Part shown: one piece after another, positions 7,298-13,834 of the stretch
Layout: every line of letters starts with the position of its first letter
Numbering within the stretch: position 1 is the first letter of the stretch
NCBI RefSeq assembly: GCF_900188175.1
Contig: NZ_FZOQ01000011.1
Span: 124,001 to 188,000 of the forward strand
Origin: Pontibacter ummariensis
Lineage (GTDB): Bacteria; Bacteroidota; Bacteroidia; Cytophagales; Hymenobacteraceae
Length of the DNA stretch: 64,000 bases
Direction of reading: 5' to 3'
Program-made: the position numbers and the translations under genes
The notes under the pieces: generated by a model
The model's input: only the letters and a program-made list of their open reading frames with translations
Databases searched by the model: none
What the model was told of the DNA's origin: nothing

Positions 7298-9313
7298 ATG
7301 ATTAAAAAGGCCACTGCCCTCCTCTTTTTTCTGCTTACCTCCCTTTATTGTTTCCCACAGGCTCCTGATGTTTTCCCACAGGCTCCTGATGTGACCGCGC
7401 TCACGAAGAAACTACAGCAGACAACCGATCCTAATGAAAGGGTAGAAGTGTTAAATGATCTGGTTAAAGTAGTTGCCTCCAAGGATCCGCAGGCAGCCAT
7501 CGGGTACGGCAAGCAGGCCCTTGAACTGGCAGAGAGCGGCAAGGATCAAAAGCTTTTGGCAGACGCTTACCACAACCTTGGCGCTGCCTACCAACTTTCA
7601 GGAGATTATAAAGCTGCAGCAGATCATAATTACAGGGCGGTTCAAATCAGGGAAACCATTGGTGATAGTCTGGGCCTTTGTACTTCCTACAATAACATCG
7701 GCAACATTAACAACTATCTGGCTTCTTACGACAAGGCCCTTACCTTTTACCTGAAATCACTGAACATCGCGAAGAAGATCCGTAACAAGGAAGCAATCAG
7801 CCGGGCCCTCAATAACATTGGCTATGCCTATCAGGTACAGGAAAAAGTAGAAAAGGCTATCGACTACTATGAACAGGCGCTCCCGATAAAAGAAGAAATC
7901 GGAGATAAGGTAGGCTACACGGTAAGCCTGATTAACCTGGGTGACCTGTACATGAAAGCCGGCGAGCTGAAGAAAGCAACCGACTACCTGCAGAAGGGGC
8001 TTGCGACAGCACAGGAGACGGACCATCAGCTAAACATGGGATACGCCTACCGGGGGCTGGCCGAGGCTTTTCAGCAATCGGAGAACTTGGCAAAAGCTGC
8101 TGATTATGCTCTCCTCAGCCTCGAGATTTCCGAAAAGCAGCAATCGTATTTTGAGATAAAACAGTCCCTTGACGTGCTAAACGGGATTTACCTGCAGGCG
8201 GGAAACCTGAGCAAAGCACACGAATACCTGACGCTGTCTTCCGCCTATAAGGACAGCATCCATAACGAAAATGCCAGACAACAGATAGAGGACCTACAGG
8301 TGCGGTATGAGTCTGAGAAGAAAGAGAAAGAGAACCTGAAACTCGCCGCTGACCGGGATCTGCAGTTAACCAGGCTAAATAGCCAAACAAGAATTACATA
8401 CCTTATTGGGGCACTACTGCTCACGTTTGCGATACTGACCTTTGTTCTGTTCAGAGGCAAAAGGCAGCTTCGTCGGCTAAGTGCATCACTTGTCCGGAAA
8501 AATGAAGAGATCAGCACGTCCGCCGAAGTGCTCAGGCAACAGGCAGTGCAGTTACAGGAGCAGAAAGAGCAGCTAGAGAAAAGCAACAGTATTAAGGACA
8601 AGCTCTTCTCGATTATAGCGCATGACCTCAGGAGCCCTATGGTAAACCTAAAGGGGCTGCTGCCCCTGTTGCGGAAGGGTGCGGTGCCGGAGGAAAGGAA
8701 AGACATGTTTCTGGACATGATCGAGGAGAACCAGCAGAGCACGCTGTGGCTAATGGACAACCTTTTCCAGTGGGCAAGGGCGCAGATGGACGGGGAGGGA
8801 GCCAGCCCGGTGGCAGTGAACCTCTCACAGCTTGCCGGGGAAAACATCAAGCTGCTGCAAGCACAGGCTGCAGGGAAGGCTATCCGCCTGGAAAGCACCA
8901 TCGGAGAAGACGCTGTTGTTTATGCGGACCTGGAGATGACAAAGCTCGTGCTACGGAACCTGATCTCTAACGCCATTAAGTTTTGTAAGCAAGGCGATAG
9001 CGTTGTGGTAAGCGCTGCAAGAGCGGAAGGCTTTATCGTAACGTCGGTAACAGATACAGGCATAGGTATCCCCGAGAACGTGAGGGGCAGGCTGTTTGAT
9101 GGCAGCAATTTTACCAGCAAGGGTACTGCTAATGAAAAAGGAAGCGGCTTGGGACTGCAGCTGTGCAAGGACTTTGTAGAGCGAAACGGCGGCCTTATCT
9201 GGGTAGATAGCCAGCCAGGCAAGGGGAGCAGCTTTCAGTTTAAGCTGCCTCTTGTGCCTGCTCACCTAAGCAAAACAGAAGAACAGGATACCGGTCTTGT
9301 TGCCTACGCCTAG
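7298..9313 (+). CDS. TPR-containing membrane sensor histidine kinase
   Basis: The protein has 671 residues. A signal peptide is followed by about six TPR repeats (roughly residues 40-320), a short coiled coil, one membrane helix (near 366-388) and a second coiled coil. The kinase core follows: H box with H442 in SIIAHDLRSP, N box LVLRNLISNAIKF, G1 DTGIGIP, and G2 GSGLGLQLCKDF. TPRs would be outside the cytoplasm and sense a protein or peptide signal by inference. No response regulator gene is adjacent, so it is an orphan kinase. A perfect 21-bp tandem duplication lies at the signal-peptide end. A terminator follows. Confidence 0.92.
   Translation: MIKKATALLFFLLTSLYCFPQAPDVFPQAPDVTALTKKLQQTTDPNERVEVLNDLVKVVASKDPQAAIGYGKQALELAESGKDQKLLADAYHNLGAAYQLSGDYKAAADHNYRAVQIRETIGDSLGLCTSYNNIGNINNYLASYDKALTFYLKSLNIAKKIRNKEAISRALNNIGYAYQVQEKVEKAIDYYEQALPIKEEIGDKVGYTVSLINLGDLYMKAGELKKATDYLQKGLATAQETDHQLNMGYAYRGLAEAFQQSENLAKAADYALLSLEISEKQQSYFEIKQSLDVLNGIYLQAGNLSKAHEYLTLSSAYKDSIHNENARQQIEDLQVRYESEKKEKENLKLAADRDLQLTRLNSQTRITYLIGALLLTFAILTFVLFRGKRQLRRLSASLVRKNEEISTSAEVLRQQAVQLQEQKEQLEKSNSIKDKLFSIIAHDLRSPMVNLKGLLPLLRKGAVPEERKDMFLDMIEENQQSTLWLMDNLFQWARAQMDGEGASPVAVNLSQLAGENIKLLQAQAAGKAIRLESTIGEDAVVYADLEMTKLVLRNLISNAIKFCKQGDSVVVSAARAEGFIVTSVTDTGIGIPENVRGRLFDGSNFTSKGTANEKGSGLGLQLCKDFVERNGGLIWVDSQPGKGSSFQFKLPLVPAHLSKTEEQDTGLVAYA
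7351..7392 (+). repeat. Perfect 21-bp tandem duplication in kinase gene
   Basis: Units 7351-7371 and 7372-7392 are identical and in frame, each encoding FPQAPDV near the signal-peptidase region of the TPR kinase. Perfect identity suggests a recent duplication by slippage. Confidence 0.9.
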
Positions 9314-9413: not shown

Positions 9414-9827
9414 CTAATGCGGCAGCTTCTCCCGCACAAGGCCATAGACATAAGTGCCGGCCACGGCACCGGCTATGGCCAGGAGTATGGCCCAATAGCC
9501 GTAGCCCAGGTTTACGAACAAGGGACCGGGACAGGCTCCTGTCAGCGCCCAGCCCAGGCCGAAAACAGTGCCACCCACCAGGTAGCGCGGCACAGACATT
9601 TCTTTGGGCTGGAACACAATGGGGTTGCCCTGGTAATCGCGCAGCTTGTACTTCTTGATGAGGTGTACTGCAATTACCCCCAGTATGACAGCCGAACCGA
9701 TGATGCCGTACATATGGAATGCCTGAAAACGGAACATTTCCTGTATGCGGTACCAGGAGATGGCTTCCGACTTACTCATCACGATGCCGAAGAGAATACC
9801 GGCCAGTATAAATTTAATTCCTTTCAT
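9414..9827 (-). CDS. YeeE/YedE transporter, C-terminal-half subunit
   Basis: This is a 137-residue, four-helix membrane protein matching the C-terminal half of YeeE/YedE (TsuA-like) transporters. Those proteins move thiosulfate or related sulfur compounds across the inner membrane. The conserved motif GLGWALTGACPGP carries the cysteine thought to relay sulfur in this family. The partner half is encoded 17 bp upstream, and the two small proteins probably form one transporter. It is the last gene of a minus-strand sulfur cluster with TauE, a Crp regulator and a CstB-like enzyme. Confidence 0.88.
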   Translation of the reverse strand: MKGIKFILAGILFGIVMSKSEAISWYRIQEMFRFQAFHMYGIIGSAVILGVIAVHLIKKYKLRDYQGNPIVFQPKEMSVPRYLVGGTVFGLGWALTGACPGPLFVNLGYGYWAILLAIAGAVAGTYVYGLVREKLPH

Positions 9828-9844
9828 TTCAGTAATTAACGAAT

Positions 9845-10411
9845 TTAAAACAGCAGCGGTAGCAGGATAAACGTGCTGATCAGCCCGCCGATGAAGAAGC
9901 CGATCACGGCAATAAGCGAAGGCAACTGCAGGTTAGAGAGGCCGCTGATGGCATGGCCCGAGGTGCAGCCCCCGGCATAACGCGAGCCGAAGCCAATCAT
10001 AAAGCCGCCAATCAGCAAGAGCAGGAAGCCCCGCACACTCAAAAGTGCTTCAAAGCTGAAAATTTTCTCCGGCTGCAGGTCATCGGGTGCCGAAAAACCT
10101 AACTCGCGGAGGTCTTCTATGGTTGCCTGTGAAATCTGTACCGGATCGTCTCCGGACATAAACTCCGACGCTATCCAGCCTCCCAACACGGCCCCTACTA
10201 AAAAGAGCAGGTTCCAGGTCTGGGCGCGCCAGTTAAAGTCAAAGAACCTGCTGTGCTTACCCGCCCCGCAGGCCGCGCAGATAACCCGGAGGTTAGTGGA
10301 AAAGCCAAACGACTTACCGAAGAACAGTAACAACACCATGATAAAGGCGATCAGGGGACCTGATACATACCATGGCCAAGGATCTCTTAAAACTTCTATT
10401 ATATTTTCCAC
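9845..10411 (-). CDS. YeeE/YedE transporter, N-terminal-half subunit
   Basis: The protein has 188 residues and about five membrane helices. It carries the family motif [20 protein letters not shown], with a cysteine in the pore region, and an extra [12 protein letters not shown] segment in a loop. It pairs with the C-terminal-half gene 17 bp downstream. Two-gene YeeE/YedE systems are usual in Bacteroidota, so this is not a frameshifted single gene. By family it would import thiosulfate or handle sulfane sulfur. The 91-bp gap from tauE contains no second Crp-type dyad, so it probably depends on the tauE promoter. Confidence 0.88.
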
Positions 10412-10502
10412 GCTTAATTTTCTGTTTGGAGGAGCAGGAGAGGCAAGGCCCGGGCCTCCTGTTAGCTACCTGTTAATTAATATAAGTAAAGGGCCTGTAC
10501 TC

Positions 10503-11300
10503 TTAAAGTATTGTTTCCTGAATTAAAATATAAACGCCCATCGCCAGCACAAACCAGCCAAAGCCCCGTTTCAGTTTCTCCCCTCTAATGCGTGTGGACA
10601 GCGCAGAGCCTATAAAGATACCGAGCACTGAGATGGTTGAGAAGGTTAGCAGAAACACCCAGTTGATGTCGTAGTTGAAGATATCCCCCACAAAACCTAA
10701 CAGCGAGTTGGCTGCAATGATAAAGAGCGAAGTGCCTACGGCCATCTTCATATCCAGACCCGTGAAGAGCACCAGTGCCGGAATGATCAGGAAGCCTCCT
10801 CCGGCGCCTACCAGCCCGGAAACAAAACCCACACCAGCCCCTTGTAACAACACCAGCAGGTAATTGTTTTCTGTAGCCTCACCCGTTGTGGTAGCTGAAT
10901 GGTAGTTGCTCTTGCGGATCATGCTAAAAGAAGCGGCCACCATCAGGATGGCGAACACTACCATCAACAGCATGTCTTTGGTTACCTGCAGGCCAAGCAG
11001 CGTTACGACGTGCTCCGGTATGGCCGGCACGATGTAAAGCCGGGTCAGGAACACGGTCAGCAGCGAAGGAGCCCCAAAGAGAACCGCCGTTTTAAAGTTG
11101 ACGAGGCCCCTGCGGTAAAAGCTGACGCTGCCCACCATGCTGGTTAGCCCCACCACAAAGAGGGAGTAGGCTGTCGAGATCACCGGGCTAAGCCGCATGA
11201 GATACACCAGGATGGGCACCGTCAGTATAGAGCCGCCACTCCCTGTTAGCCCCAGTGAGAGCCCGATGAGCACAGCGGCCAGGTATCCTAAAACTTCCAT
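10503..11300 (-). CDS. TauE/SafE family sulfite/sulfur-anion exporter
   Basis: This 265-residue integral membrane protein has about eight helices and the family start [16 protein letters not shown], repeated as [16 protein letters not shown] in the second half. TauE/SafE proteins export sulfite, sulfoacetate and similar anions. Beside a persulfide dioxygenase, sulfite is the natural product to export (inference). I chose ATG 11300; the open frame reaches 11330 but ten extra residues have no support. A TANNTTTG box and a Crp-type dyad lie 28-71 bp upstream. Confidence 0.9.
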
Positions 11301-11327
11301 ACGAGTTCCTTTAAACTTAAACTGGTG

Positions 11328-11371
11328 CAAAGGTAGGGCGCATATGTAGCGCTGTCAGTGACAAGTATCAC
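11328..11371 (-). promoter_or_regulatory. Promoter with Crp/Fnr-type operator upstream of tauE
   Basis: Read on the minus strand, GTGATACTTGTCAC forms the dyad GTGA-N6-TCAC (11358-11371), followed by the Bacteroidota -7 box TACCTTTG (11335-11328). The dyad centre is 36.5 bp from the 3' end of the box, placing it near -41.5 from the likely transcription start. That is the class II position for Crp/Fnr activators. The same geometry is repeated upstream of the CstB-like gene. Confidence 0.75.
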
Positions 11372-11385
11372 ATGAGTTGATTTGC

Positions 11386-12033
11386 TCACAGTATGTCCAG
11401 GTTTTTGATCTCCAGAAAACTGCGGTGAAGCACCAGGGCTCCTTGTTGCTCCAGTTTTTTGAGCAGGCGGGAGATCACTTCACGGGAGCTGTTCAGGTCA
11501 TCAGCAATCTGCTGATGGGAAAGGCGCACTTCCTGGCCCAGCCTTTCCTGGTGGCGGCGCAGGTAGAATACCAGCCGCTCGTCCATGGCCTTAAACGCGA
11601 TGCTATCCAGCGTCAGTAGCAGTTCCTCAAAGCGCTGCCGGTAAGAGCCGATCACGAAGCTGTGCCAGCTTTTATATTTTGCGAGCCACTGCTCTGTCAG
11701 GTGCTGCGGCACTAGCATCACCTCAGAGTCCTGCACAGCCTTCGCCATGATCTGGCTCTTCTCATTTCGGACAGAGCACATCATGGAAAGGGCACAGGCG
11801 TTCCCGGGCTCCAGGTAGTACATCAAAAACTCATTGCCTTCCTCATCTTCCCGGTAAATTTTCAGCAGGCCGCTGAGCAGCAGGAGGGAGGAGCGCAGGT
11901 ACTGCCCTGTACGGATGACCTGTTCCCCTTCCGAAAAGCTGCGAACGGTACTCTCCTGTAGCAGGTCATCCAGGAGGGGCCCTTCGAGCTGGGGGAACTG
12001 CTTTTTAATATCTTCTTTCGATAAATTATCCAT
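11386..12033 (-). CDS. Crp/Fnr family regulator with two sensor-domain cysteines
   Basis: This 215-residue regulator has an N-terminal cyclic-nucleotide-fold domain (about 20-120), a dimer helix and a C-terminal winged HTH. The recognition region reads LSHQQIADDLNSSREVISRLLKKL. It lacks the Fnr iron-sulfur cysteine cluster. Its only two cysteines are C80 and C86 (ACALSMMC), inside the sensor fold, which could sense persulfides or redox state (inference). It sits between tauE and the CstB-like gene, whose promoters both carry Crp-type dyads, so it is the likely regulator of both. No dyad is seen in front of its own gene. Confidence 0.88.
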   Translation of the reverse strand: MDNLSKEDIKKQFPQLEGPLLDDLLQESTVRSFSEGEQVIRTGQYLRSSLLLLSGLLKIYREDEEGNEFLMYYLEPGNACALSMMCSVRNEKSQIMAKAVQDSEVMLVPQHLTEQWLAKYKSWHSFVIGSYRQRFEELLLTLDSIAFKAMDERLVFYLRRHQERLGQEVRLSHQQIADDLNSSREVISRLLKKLEQQGALVLHRSFLEIKNLDIL

Positions 12034-12375
12034 GAGGCTCCTTAAAGGTCATTCGGCTGTTTCGTTCGTGTGATGGTACTGAAGGTATTGATCATTAAAG
12101 TTACCTTACATTTGGTTAAGCTGTGCAATTAAATGGCCTGTTCAGGCTCTTTTCGCCTCGCCGGCAGGGCCACAATCTTCCTTGGTGGGGTAGGACCTAC
12201 GGAAAGAAGTTTGCCATCCCGCCTTCGGCACCCTCCTTGTAAAAGGAGGAAAGAAGAAAAGAACCAAGACCCTCCTAAGCAAAGGCCCCTTACTTGCTGA
12301 AGGCACCAGCAACAAATAAATGGAACATTCGTGCACCTGGCAAAGGCTTTTTCGCTGTGATGCAGGAAGCTATTC
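12034..12375. other. Intergenic with small CCTCCTT/AAGGAGG hairpin
   Basis: About 340 bp separate the CstB-like gene and the crp-type gene. A 7-bp inverted repeat with a 4-nt loop lies at 12232-12249. Overlapping open frames here have no family likeness. The crp-type gene probably has its own promoter near 12070-12110 (a TAACTTTA-like box on the minus strand). Confidence 0.4.
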
Positions 12376-13731
12376 TTAGCTATGAGCACCGTTTCTAAAC
12401 TCGGTGATTGCTTCGCTTAAGTCGAGTACCTGGGTTTGGGGCAAGGCTGCTTCCAGGATACTGCTTCCGGCGGCGGAGCGGTAGCCTCCTGCGCAGTGCA
12501 CTATTACAGGTTTATCGGCAGGAACTTCCTTTGCCCGTTCCCGCAGTTCCGGGAGTGGGATGTTCAGGGCATGTTCAAATATTTTCTGCGCTTTGGTTTC
12601 AGATGAATTGCGGACGTCCACAATGGTATAGGCTTCCGCGTTTTTGCCTAACTCCTCTACGCCAAACACAGGAGAAGAGGTAGGTGCCTCCCGACCATCG
12701 AACACGAAAGCACCTTTGATCAACTGCTCATAGCCGATCTTGGCTGCTTTCGCAACGACTTCCTGAAGCGCTTCTTCGCTTTCCGCTATCAGGTAGAAAC
12801 GTTCCTCCGGTGCTATGATGCTTCCCAGCCAGGTTTCGAACTTACCGCCGTTTTGGATGTTGATCGCACCTTCGTAGTGCCCTTGCTTGAAGGTTTTCTC
12901 CTTGCGTGCATCTACGATGAGGCTGCCCGCCTCCGGCCTAAAGTTTTTCTCCAGCCACGGCACCTCCTGTATGCTTGTCCGGTAAGCCGGGGCGCCCTTT
13001 TTATTCAAAGCCACATCATAGCCGAAGTACTTCGGTATAAAAGGCTGGTCTTCGGTGATTAGCTGCACAAAATCCGCTTCGCTCATCTGCTGCAAAGCGT
13101 AGTTCCCGGCTTTTTCTGCCCCCATCGTGCTGCTGTTGGCCTCGCTGAGCGATTTCCCACATAAGGTGCCTGCTCCATGCGCCGGGTATACAATTACGTC
13201 ATCCGCGAGCTGCATCAGCTTTTCGCGGGTACTGTGGTACAGCTGTCGCGCCAGCTCCTCCCGCTTTGCGGTAATGCTACCTGCCTTCTCGCGCAGGTCC
13301 GGGCGCCCGACATCGCCTATAAACAGAGTGTCGCCCGTAAATACCGCTTTGTCCTGGCCTTCGTGTTCCAGCACAATGCTGATGCCATCCGGGGAGTGGC
13401 CGGGCGTGTGCAGCGACTTCAGCTTTATATCACCCATTGGCAGTTCGGCCCCTTCGTCAAAGCTGTGATGGGGGTAGTCGGCTCCCACCAAGCTATGGGC
13501 ATAAATCGTGGCACCCGTCTTTTCGTGTATCTCCAGGTGAGAACTTACAAAATCAGCATGCGGGTGCGTTTCAATGACAGCTATGATCCTAGCCTGGTGG
13601 GCTTCGGCAAACTCATAGTAGGGCTGCGGGTCTCGTGCCGGGTCGATCAGGACCACCTCACCCGTACCTTCACTTAAGATAGCGTACCCGTACTGCGCTA
13701 AGCCTTTGTCTTCAAACTGCTGTAATTTCAT
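12376..13731 (-). CDS. CstB-like persulfide dioxygenase-rhodanese fusion
   Basis: The protein has 451 residues in three parts. Residues 1-250 are a metallo-beta-lactamase fold of persulfide dioxygenase type: THPHAD (56-60), HTPGHSPDG (108-116) and TGDTLF with D134 supply the iron ligands. The residue after D60 is Phe rather than the usual His. Residues about 265-350 are a rhodanese-like domain with no catalytic Cys. Residues about 360-451 are an active-type rhodanese with C413 in VHCAGGYRSA. This order and length match Staphylococcus CstB, which oxidises persulfides to sulfite and thiosulfate. TauE and YeeE/YedE transporters downstream fit that role. Confidence 0.88.
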   Translation of the reverse strand: MKLQQFEDKGLAQYGYAILSEGTGEVVLIDPARDPQPYYEFAEAHQARIIAVIETHPHADFVSSHLEIHEKTGATIYAHSLVGADYPHHSFDEGAELPMGDIKLKSLHTPGHSPDGISIVLEHEGQDKAVFTGDTLFIGDVGRPDLREKAGSITAKREELARQLYHSTREKLMQLADDVIVYPAHGAGTLCGKSLSEANSSTMGAEKAGNYALQQMSEADFVQLITEDQPFIPKYFGYDVALNKKGAPAYRTSIQEVPWLEKNFRPEAGSLIVDARKEKTFKQGHYEGAINIQNGGKFETWLGSIIAPEERFYLIAESEEALQEVVAKAAKIGYEQLIKGAFVFDGREAPTSSPVFGVEELGKNAEAYTIVDVRNSSETKAQKIFEHALNIPLPELRERAKEVPADKPVIVHCAGGYRSAAGSSILEAALPQTQVLDLSEAITEFRNGAHS

Positions 13732-13761
13732 TTTTCTAGGTTTATCTCTTTTTTATACGGC

Positions 13762-13777
13762 AAGTCCTGCAGGACTT
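13762..13777. repeat. 16-bp perfect palindrome in 5' UTR of CstB-like gene
   Basis: AAGTCCTGCAGGACTT lies between the predicted transcription start and the start codon of the CstB-like gene. It could be a repressor site or an mRNA hairpin without loop; no function is shown. Confidence 0.5.
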
Positions 13778-13790
13778 ACAAGTCTTTATA

Positions 13791-13834
13791 CAAAAGTACG
13801 GCTTCAGCACGCTGCGTTCAGTGACGTTAGTCAC
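13791..13834 (-). promoter_or_regulatory. Promoter with Crp/Fnr-type operator upstream of CstB-like gene
   Basis: On the minus strand GTGACTAACGTCAC (13834-13821) is a GTGA-N6-TCAC dyad and TACTTTTG (13798-13791) is a perfect TANNTTTG -7 box. Dyad centre to box end is 36.5 bp, identical to the tauE promoter. The start codon is 60 bp downstream of the box. The rest of the 13835-14143 spacer holds no gene; it leads into the divergent M16 operon. Confidence 0.77.

Follow-up and report, generated by a model that had tools for sequence, protein, structure and literature searches.

We analysed a 64,000-nucleotide stretch of the Pontibacter ummariensis genome (hereafter the window), the minus strand of which carries, from position 13731 down to 9414, a block of sulfur genes: a metallo-β-lactamase (MBL)/rhodanese fusion, a Crp-family gene, tauE and two YeeE-type halves. 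The Crp-family protein, called CrpB here, appears to switch on sulfide/persulfide genes from a single, constant promoter position in many Bacteroidota, and it may sense reactive sulfur. Judging from sequence, we put the probability that CrpB works as a class II activator dedicated to sulfur export and to the oxidation of sulfide and persulfide at roughly 0.7, the sulfane-sulfur signal being the less certain part. A CrpB dimer would bind GTGA-N6-TCAC centred at −41.5 and, once bound, recruit RNA polymerase to a TANNTTTG promoter. Its targets would be tauE, the persulfide dioxygenase-rhodanese, rhodaneses, YeeE pairs and, in some relatives, genes resembling that of sulfide:quinone reductase (SQR). 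Sulfane sulfur (persulfide/polysulfide) would modify or link C80 and C86 at the site of the cyclic AMP (cAMP) pocket, and DNA binding would thereby be turned on.

An operator and a −7 box at fixed spacing

A sequence-only reading of the window had placed GTGAN6TCAC dyads at 11358-11371 and 13821-13834, each followed on the minus strand by a TANNTTTG box with the same geometry. Both dyads were found there, with boxes at 11328-11335 and 13791-13798; at either promoter, 22 base pairs (bp) separate dyad and box, and the dyad centre is 36.5 bp from the last base of the box. The pair at 13821-13834 and 13791-13798 (minus strand; operator dyad GTGACTAACGTCAC, −7 box TACTTTTG) belongs to the promoter of the CstB-like persulfide dioxygenase-rhodanese, and the pair at 11358-11371 and 11328-11335 (minus strand; GTGATACTTGTCAC and TACCTTTG, respectively) to that of tauE. 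A third copy of the dyad, at 7391-7404, lies without a box within a histidine-kinase-like open reading frame (ORF; 7298-9313) and is taken as chance.

The number of dyads expected in the window is 0.63, and three were reached in 2 of 100 shuffles. The box by itself is uninformative (32 in the window against 39.7 expected), the exact pairing being the improbable part. Across the 5.97 Mb genome of the organism, GTGAN6TCAC occurs 73 times, against 50 for the reversed pattern, while a dyad followed by a TANNTTTG box at a distance of 10-40 bp occurs seven times, against one, and in all seven cases the gap is exactly 22 bp. The dyad-box pairing is thus far from chance. All seven sites fall in two sulfur clusters, two sites in the window and five on contig C43.

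This second, larger sulfur cluster spans L001 (G000:C43:1-20000) and L002:206-823. The five C43 sites precede genes for a rhodanese, TauE, a YeeE pair, thioredoxin reductase (TrxR) and a paralogue of the window's persulfide dioxygenase. The cluster also has two persulfide dioxygenases, a porin, a universal-stress protein and a methyltransferase, the last preceded by a degenerate operator, and it carries two Crp genes, a CrpB copy 66% identical to the window protein and CrpA, 39% identical to it. A search of the genome with two mismatches allowed gave 12 matches against one for the reversed pattern. The matches at C43:8522, before the second persulfide dioxygenase, and C43:20931, before the methyltransferase, are likely real extra sites; a weight-matrix scan also returned degenerate sites before these two genes. 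Matches on C28 (seemingly in a coding end) and on C66 and C71 (no fitting gene noticed) were taken as chance.

The sequence-only reading also called for a search for dyads upstream of orthologues in related genomes, and there they turned out to be conserved. Eighty loci, the best 80 of 282 confirmed Crp relatives, contain 219 GTGAN6TCAC dyads, while permuted half-sites or other spacers occur only 3-13 times. Perfect TANNTTTG boxes lie 0-59 bp downstream of these dyads in 110 cases, 102 of them at gap 22; when up to one mismatch is allowed, 198 of the 219 dyads have a box at gap 22, and each other gap averages 2.8. Such a gap-22 site is present in 73 of the 80 loci. The dyads lie overwhelmingly (191 of 219) outside ORFs of at least 200 amino acids, a fraction that makes up 33% of the sequence. 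For the 102 perfect sites, the logo reads T-GTGAC-aaaa-GTCAC-TG...TACCTTTGTA.

As had been proposed, the sulfur genes look like one regulon, the gap-22 sites mostly standing before tauE, CstB-like and rhodanese genes. Genes adjoining the 198 sites encode TauE 58 times, persulfide dioxygenase-rhodanese 75 times (38 + 37) and rhodanese 33 times (32 + 1), the remainder being YeeE (6), TrxR (4), Crp itself (4) and others (18). Among these 18 are five SQR-like genes, four from Flavobacterium loci and one from L144; the one of the five that was scanned, in L129, has a match to a type III SQR model (E 1.8e-72) that stays under the model's cut-off. Two others, at the gap-22 sites L129 10846 and L131 10912, are TetR-like by inspection and lie beside the SQR-like gene in Flavobacterium.

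A phylum-wide motif scan gave hits in 36 of 395 genomes, with 45 matches outside the organism's own genome against 11 for the reversed motif; about a quarter of the matches may be chance. Several of the downstream genes, by ORF reading, are not sulfur genes (gatB-like, peroxiredoxin, DUF2249-like). Of the 35 genomes other than that of P. ummariensis, 30 have a Crp protein of this type (E 1e-20), in 10 cases within 5 kb of a motif. In L056, L063 and L060, the same geometry is found before TrxR-like/ferredoxin-reductase-like and DUF2892-like genes, a possible wider regulon.

Recognition of the operator by the neighbouring Crp protein

CrpB, a protein of 215 amino acids encoded at 11386-12033 on the minus strand, is 80% identical to its Pontibacter oryzae match. 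Proteins at least 60% identical to it occur in 64 of 204 genomes of the family and the gap-22 motif in 70, both being found in 62. The motif is thus present in 62 of the 64 genomes with CrpB versus 8 of the 140 without (Fisher p 1e-40, ignoring kinship), and the reversed control gave three matches across the family genomes. G002 and G005, the two CrpB genomes that lack a perfect motif, carry boxes at gap 22 that deviate by one mismatch. CrpA-type genes occur in four of the eight motif genomes without CrpB (G135, G160, G163 and G174), the G163 gene having an internal stop codon; no CrpA-type protein was found at E 1e-20 in G131, G144, G029 and G084. The conserved CACTG is missing from the motifs of G029 and G084, which appear to be chance matches. 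In G183, a shortened CrpA-type match was seen but no motif.

The recognition helix carries R184-E185-x-x-x-R189 (codons at 11467-11484, minus strand), the R-E-x-x-x-R of CRP; R184, E185 and R189 are present in all 83 aligned proteins (from the 80 loci and the window, and two from L001), and the operator has GTGA. Residue 185 aligns with a position of E. coli CRP that we take to be E181, the residue that recognises the third base of GTGA; this preference is lost when E181 is mutated. Among 30 wider relatives, a GTGA dyad lies within 3 kb in 15 of 21 with Glu185 and in none of nine with Val185. A search of Flavobacteriaceae with a Val-type protein gave matches at E 1e-55 in 153 of 199 genomes, and Val at 185 was confirmed in all of the best 30 loci, the ones in which the residue was checked. 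An unguided palindrome count in these 30 loci found GTAAC-N4-GTTAC 43 times, the mean of five shuffles being 0. Gap-22 sites of GTGA and GTAA form number 198 and 6 in the 80 Glu185 loci, and 1 and 40 in the 30 Val185 loci. Locus by locus, there are 47 Glu/GTGA pairs, 26 Val/GTAA pairs and no crossed pair, with 33 of 106 loci not scored. In the tree, a single branch (support 93, not starred) separates the Val185 proteins from the others, and the Glu/Val change is therefore a single switch. Accompanied by a change of almost all operators between GTGAC and GTAAC, it would be a natural equivalent of the specificity mutants at E181 that were reportedly made from E. coli CRP in the laboratory.

This co-variation of recognition helix and operator is the strongest evidence, at the level of sequence, that the neighbouring Crp protein would read the operator. 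Together with the co-occurrence, it argues for the earlier proposal that a local Crp-family protein reads the dyads, and we hold with high confidence both the predicted regulon and the predicted binding partner. GTGA-N6-TCAC is the classical CRP core, and the dyads could for that reason be used by a global cAMP-type Crp and not by the local protein. We regard this as very improbable: the operator letter tracks residue 185 of the neighbouring protein, and dyads with a box occur in the P. ummariensis genome only in the two sulfur clusters. Moreover, the good matches in that genome are the three Crp proteins beside sulfur genes, two others being 19-22% identical (a search that may miss some).

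Promoter position and mode of action

The start-site map of Flavobacterium psychrophilum puts TAnnTTTG at −12 to −5 (PMC9723704), from which we take the position of the −7 box. Since the box ends at −5 and the dyad centre lies 36.5 bp further, the centre would be at −41.5 (−5 − 36.5) at both window promoters. In E. coli CRP, −41.5 is the class II activator position. The site position is thus that of a class II Crp promoter, on a start-site map that comes from F. psychrophilum and not from P. ummariensis, and together with the fixed gap of 22 it supports the sequence-only reading, which had put the dyad near −41.5. Genome-wide searches made without regard to sulfur genes, in which 31 gaps were allowed, point the same way: gap 22 accounts for 77 of 150 among the matches listed for the GTGA form in the organism's own family, and for 116 of 150 among those listed for the GTAAC form in Flavobacteriaceae.

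We favour activation over repression because the class II position is fixed, and on these sequence data CrpB quite likely activates its genes. Alternatively, the protein could block the promoter as a repressor and come off in response to persulfide, in the manner of CstR and SqrR. Both of these known persulfide regulators are named repressors (PMC9774590), the dyad sits a short way upstream of the −7 box, and in Val-type loci the crp gene itself follows six of the 40 gap-22 sites. A repressor, however, has no need of an exact distance, and the preference for gap 22 among 31 allowed is strong in both searches. In addition, crpB is seldom preceded by a dyad (within 350 bp in 2 of the 80 loci; 4 of the 198 sites were assigned to it), which fits a sensor made at a constant level. 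Repression thus seems improbable. Val-type genes are preceded by a site more often than crpB (6 of 40 sites). Some CrpA/Val-type genes (L184, L206, L209, L211, L215, L220 and L228) differ from most crpB genes in having an operator directly before themselves, a possible case of autoregulation.

The CTG conserved after the dyad was considered as a −33 element and dropped, the promoters without a dyad in these loci having no clear peak (TTG in 3 and CTG in 6 of 94). In F. johnsoniae, no −33 element was found (PMC7366714).

The cysteine pair and the signal

The regulator matches PF00027, PF13545 and PF00325 above cut-off, as expected for the Crp/Fnr superfamily. Its AlphaFold model (predicted local distance difference test 89, predicted template modelling score 0.67) has a helix at 81-89, and all 50 Foldseek hits listed for this model are of Crp/Fnr type, DNR and HcpR among them. 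The best solved relative by sequence profile is 3dv8, a Crp/Fnr-type protein of Eubacterium rectale (E 3.7e-28), which belongs to another phylum and aligns with the same CxxSxxC; the cysteine pair may thus be older than Bacteroidota.

C80 and C86 (codons at 11794-11796 and 11776-11778, minus strand) are indeed the sole cysteines of the protein, as the sequence-only reading had it. Both are present in all 83 aligned proteins, retrieved with search patterns that did not include these residues; in the wider set, C80 is found in 32 of 32 and C86 in 30 of 32, and in the Val type both are found in 30 of 30. They are located where the phosphate-binding cassette for cAMP would be. In an ungapped alignment from G77 to S93, the column of the cAMP contact residue that we number E72 in E. 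coli CRP has L, M, I or V in 83 of 83 proteins, and that of the contact taken to be R82 has R in one of 83; the HMMER alignment instead gives E72 no partner. The NCBIfam CRP score is 46 against a cut-off of 266. CrpB thus shares with E. coli CRP the fold, the RExxxR recognition helix, the operator core and the −41.5 position, and differs from it in having a cysteine pair instead of the E72/R82 contacts, a Bacteroidota −7 box and a narrow regulon.

That C80 and C86 would sense sulfane sulfur is plausible and, we think, has slightly better than an even chance; persulfide as the signal is suggested by the genes of the regulon, by the conservation of the cysteines and by the way in which unrelated regulators behave (PMC9774590). 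A different signal acting on the same regulon and activator, the cysteines holding a metal, a haem or an iron-sulfur group or sensing redox, nitric oxide or sulfite, seems unlikely to us. All evidence is from sequence, two cysteines per chain can bind a metal, and four relatives (L099, L133, L137 and L141) keep both cysteines though their fetched loci show no sulfur genes of the reference set. DNR and HcpR, which appear among the Foldseek hits, are linked to nitric oxide. Against these points, the downstream genes are mostly sulfide/persulfide genes, and the N-terminal cysteine cluster of FNR is absent, C80 and C86 being the only cysteines.

Several observations weigh against the reading of CrpB as a sulfur-responsive activator of this regulon. 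Seven of the 80 loci (L099, L127, L133, L137, L139, L141 and L143) lack a gap-22 site, close species inflate the counts among relatives, and kinship is likewise ignored in the co-occurrence p value. The CrpA-type paralogues share the operator, and either CrpA or CrpB could act in cluster C43. No unambiguous gap-22 site was found in 17 of 64 Glu185 and 13 of 39 Val185 rows, and the Glu/Val switch, as one tree event, is one contrast and not 73. The background of the GTAAC scan in Flavobacteriaceae is sizeable, the motif giving 328 matches in 139 of 199 genomes and its reversed form 82 in 63, and the 94 promoters without a dyad in the relatives' loci show no clear −33 element. As regards the cysteines, the six-residue spacing of C80 and C86 may be too wide for a plain disulfide, and two relatives, L197 and L198, keep C80 and have Ser or Gly at 86, the gene frame of L198 having a stop codon.

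CstR of Staphylococcus aureus controls a CstB-type enzyme (persulfide dioxygenase-rhodanese) and a TauE-like gene, and this is its likeness to the system described here. The sequence-only reading had noted no CstR-like gene in the window; a whole-genome search with PF02583, the window itself not being scanned separately, agrees with it, giving one match, G000:C59:46872, outside the window. This CsoR-family gene (L199 2304-2717) lies near a Cys-rich, copper-storage-like ORF, and its protein seems to lack the first cysteine of the CstR type, with proline at what we take to be that position. The regulator of the window matches Crp families only (Pfam), whereas the CstR tetramer is built wholly of helices and is a CsoR-like repressor, with C31/C60, of five other genes of its own operon (PMC9774590). 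FisR of Cupriavidus pinatubonensis is, like the predicted CrpB, an activator responsive to reactive sulfur, but it is σ54-dependent, of another family and has three conserved cysteines (PMC9774590).

The ArsR fold, in contrast to the Crp fold, is that of BigR. SqrR (PMC9774590) and SoxR, which share it, are named repressors and, like BigR (PMC7315123), sense sulfane sulfur or persulfide. The Crp-like A1S_1182 of Acinetobacter baumannii is a Crp-family protein persulfidated in sulfide-treated cells, but it is 50% identical to E. coli Crp and has its conserved cysteine opposite the ligand pocket (PMC7315123).

Titles and abstract openings of open-licence papers yielded no regulator of sulfide or persulfide genes from the Crp family, no described regulator of sulfide/persulfide oxidation in Bacteroidota and no description of this Crp branch. 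We give an even chance to the broader view that a large Crp branch across Bacteroidota has had its cAMP pocket swapped for a C-x2-S/T-x2-C sulfane-sulfur switch and serves as a class II activator of sulfide detoxification, one Glu/Val change going with GTGAC/GTAAC operators. If the reading holds, Pontibacter-like genera and many Flavobacteriaceae, in a phylum abundant in sea, soil and gut, would have a regulator, an operator and a promoter geometry assigned to these genes. Persulfide-sensing regulators would gain a new fold, and regulator and operator would form a natural case of joint change, reducible to one residue and one base.

As for the other genes of the block, the persulfide dioxygenase-rhodanese (12376-13731, minus strand; Pfam) has, in a single chain, an MBL domain, a Cys-less middle rhodanese and a C-terminal rhodanese with Cys, its dioxygenase and rhodanese cysteines being C191 and C413. 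It aligns with the solved 3tp9 over residues 1-428 and with 3r2u, presumably S. aureus CstB, over 3-428, both cysteines included, and the name CstB-like is therefore fair. The tauE gene (10503-11300, minus strand, ATG start) encodes a TauE/SafE exporter family protein (PF01925). The two YeeE/YedE-type sulfur transport half-proteins are encoded on the minus strand at 9845-10411 (PF04143) and 9414-9827 (PF04143/PF20398). A weight-matrix scan of the window found no operator belonging to the former, whose paralogue in L001 has one; transcription of this gene is probably read through from tauE.

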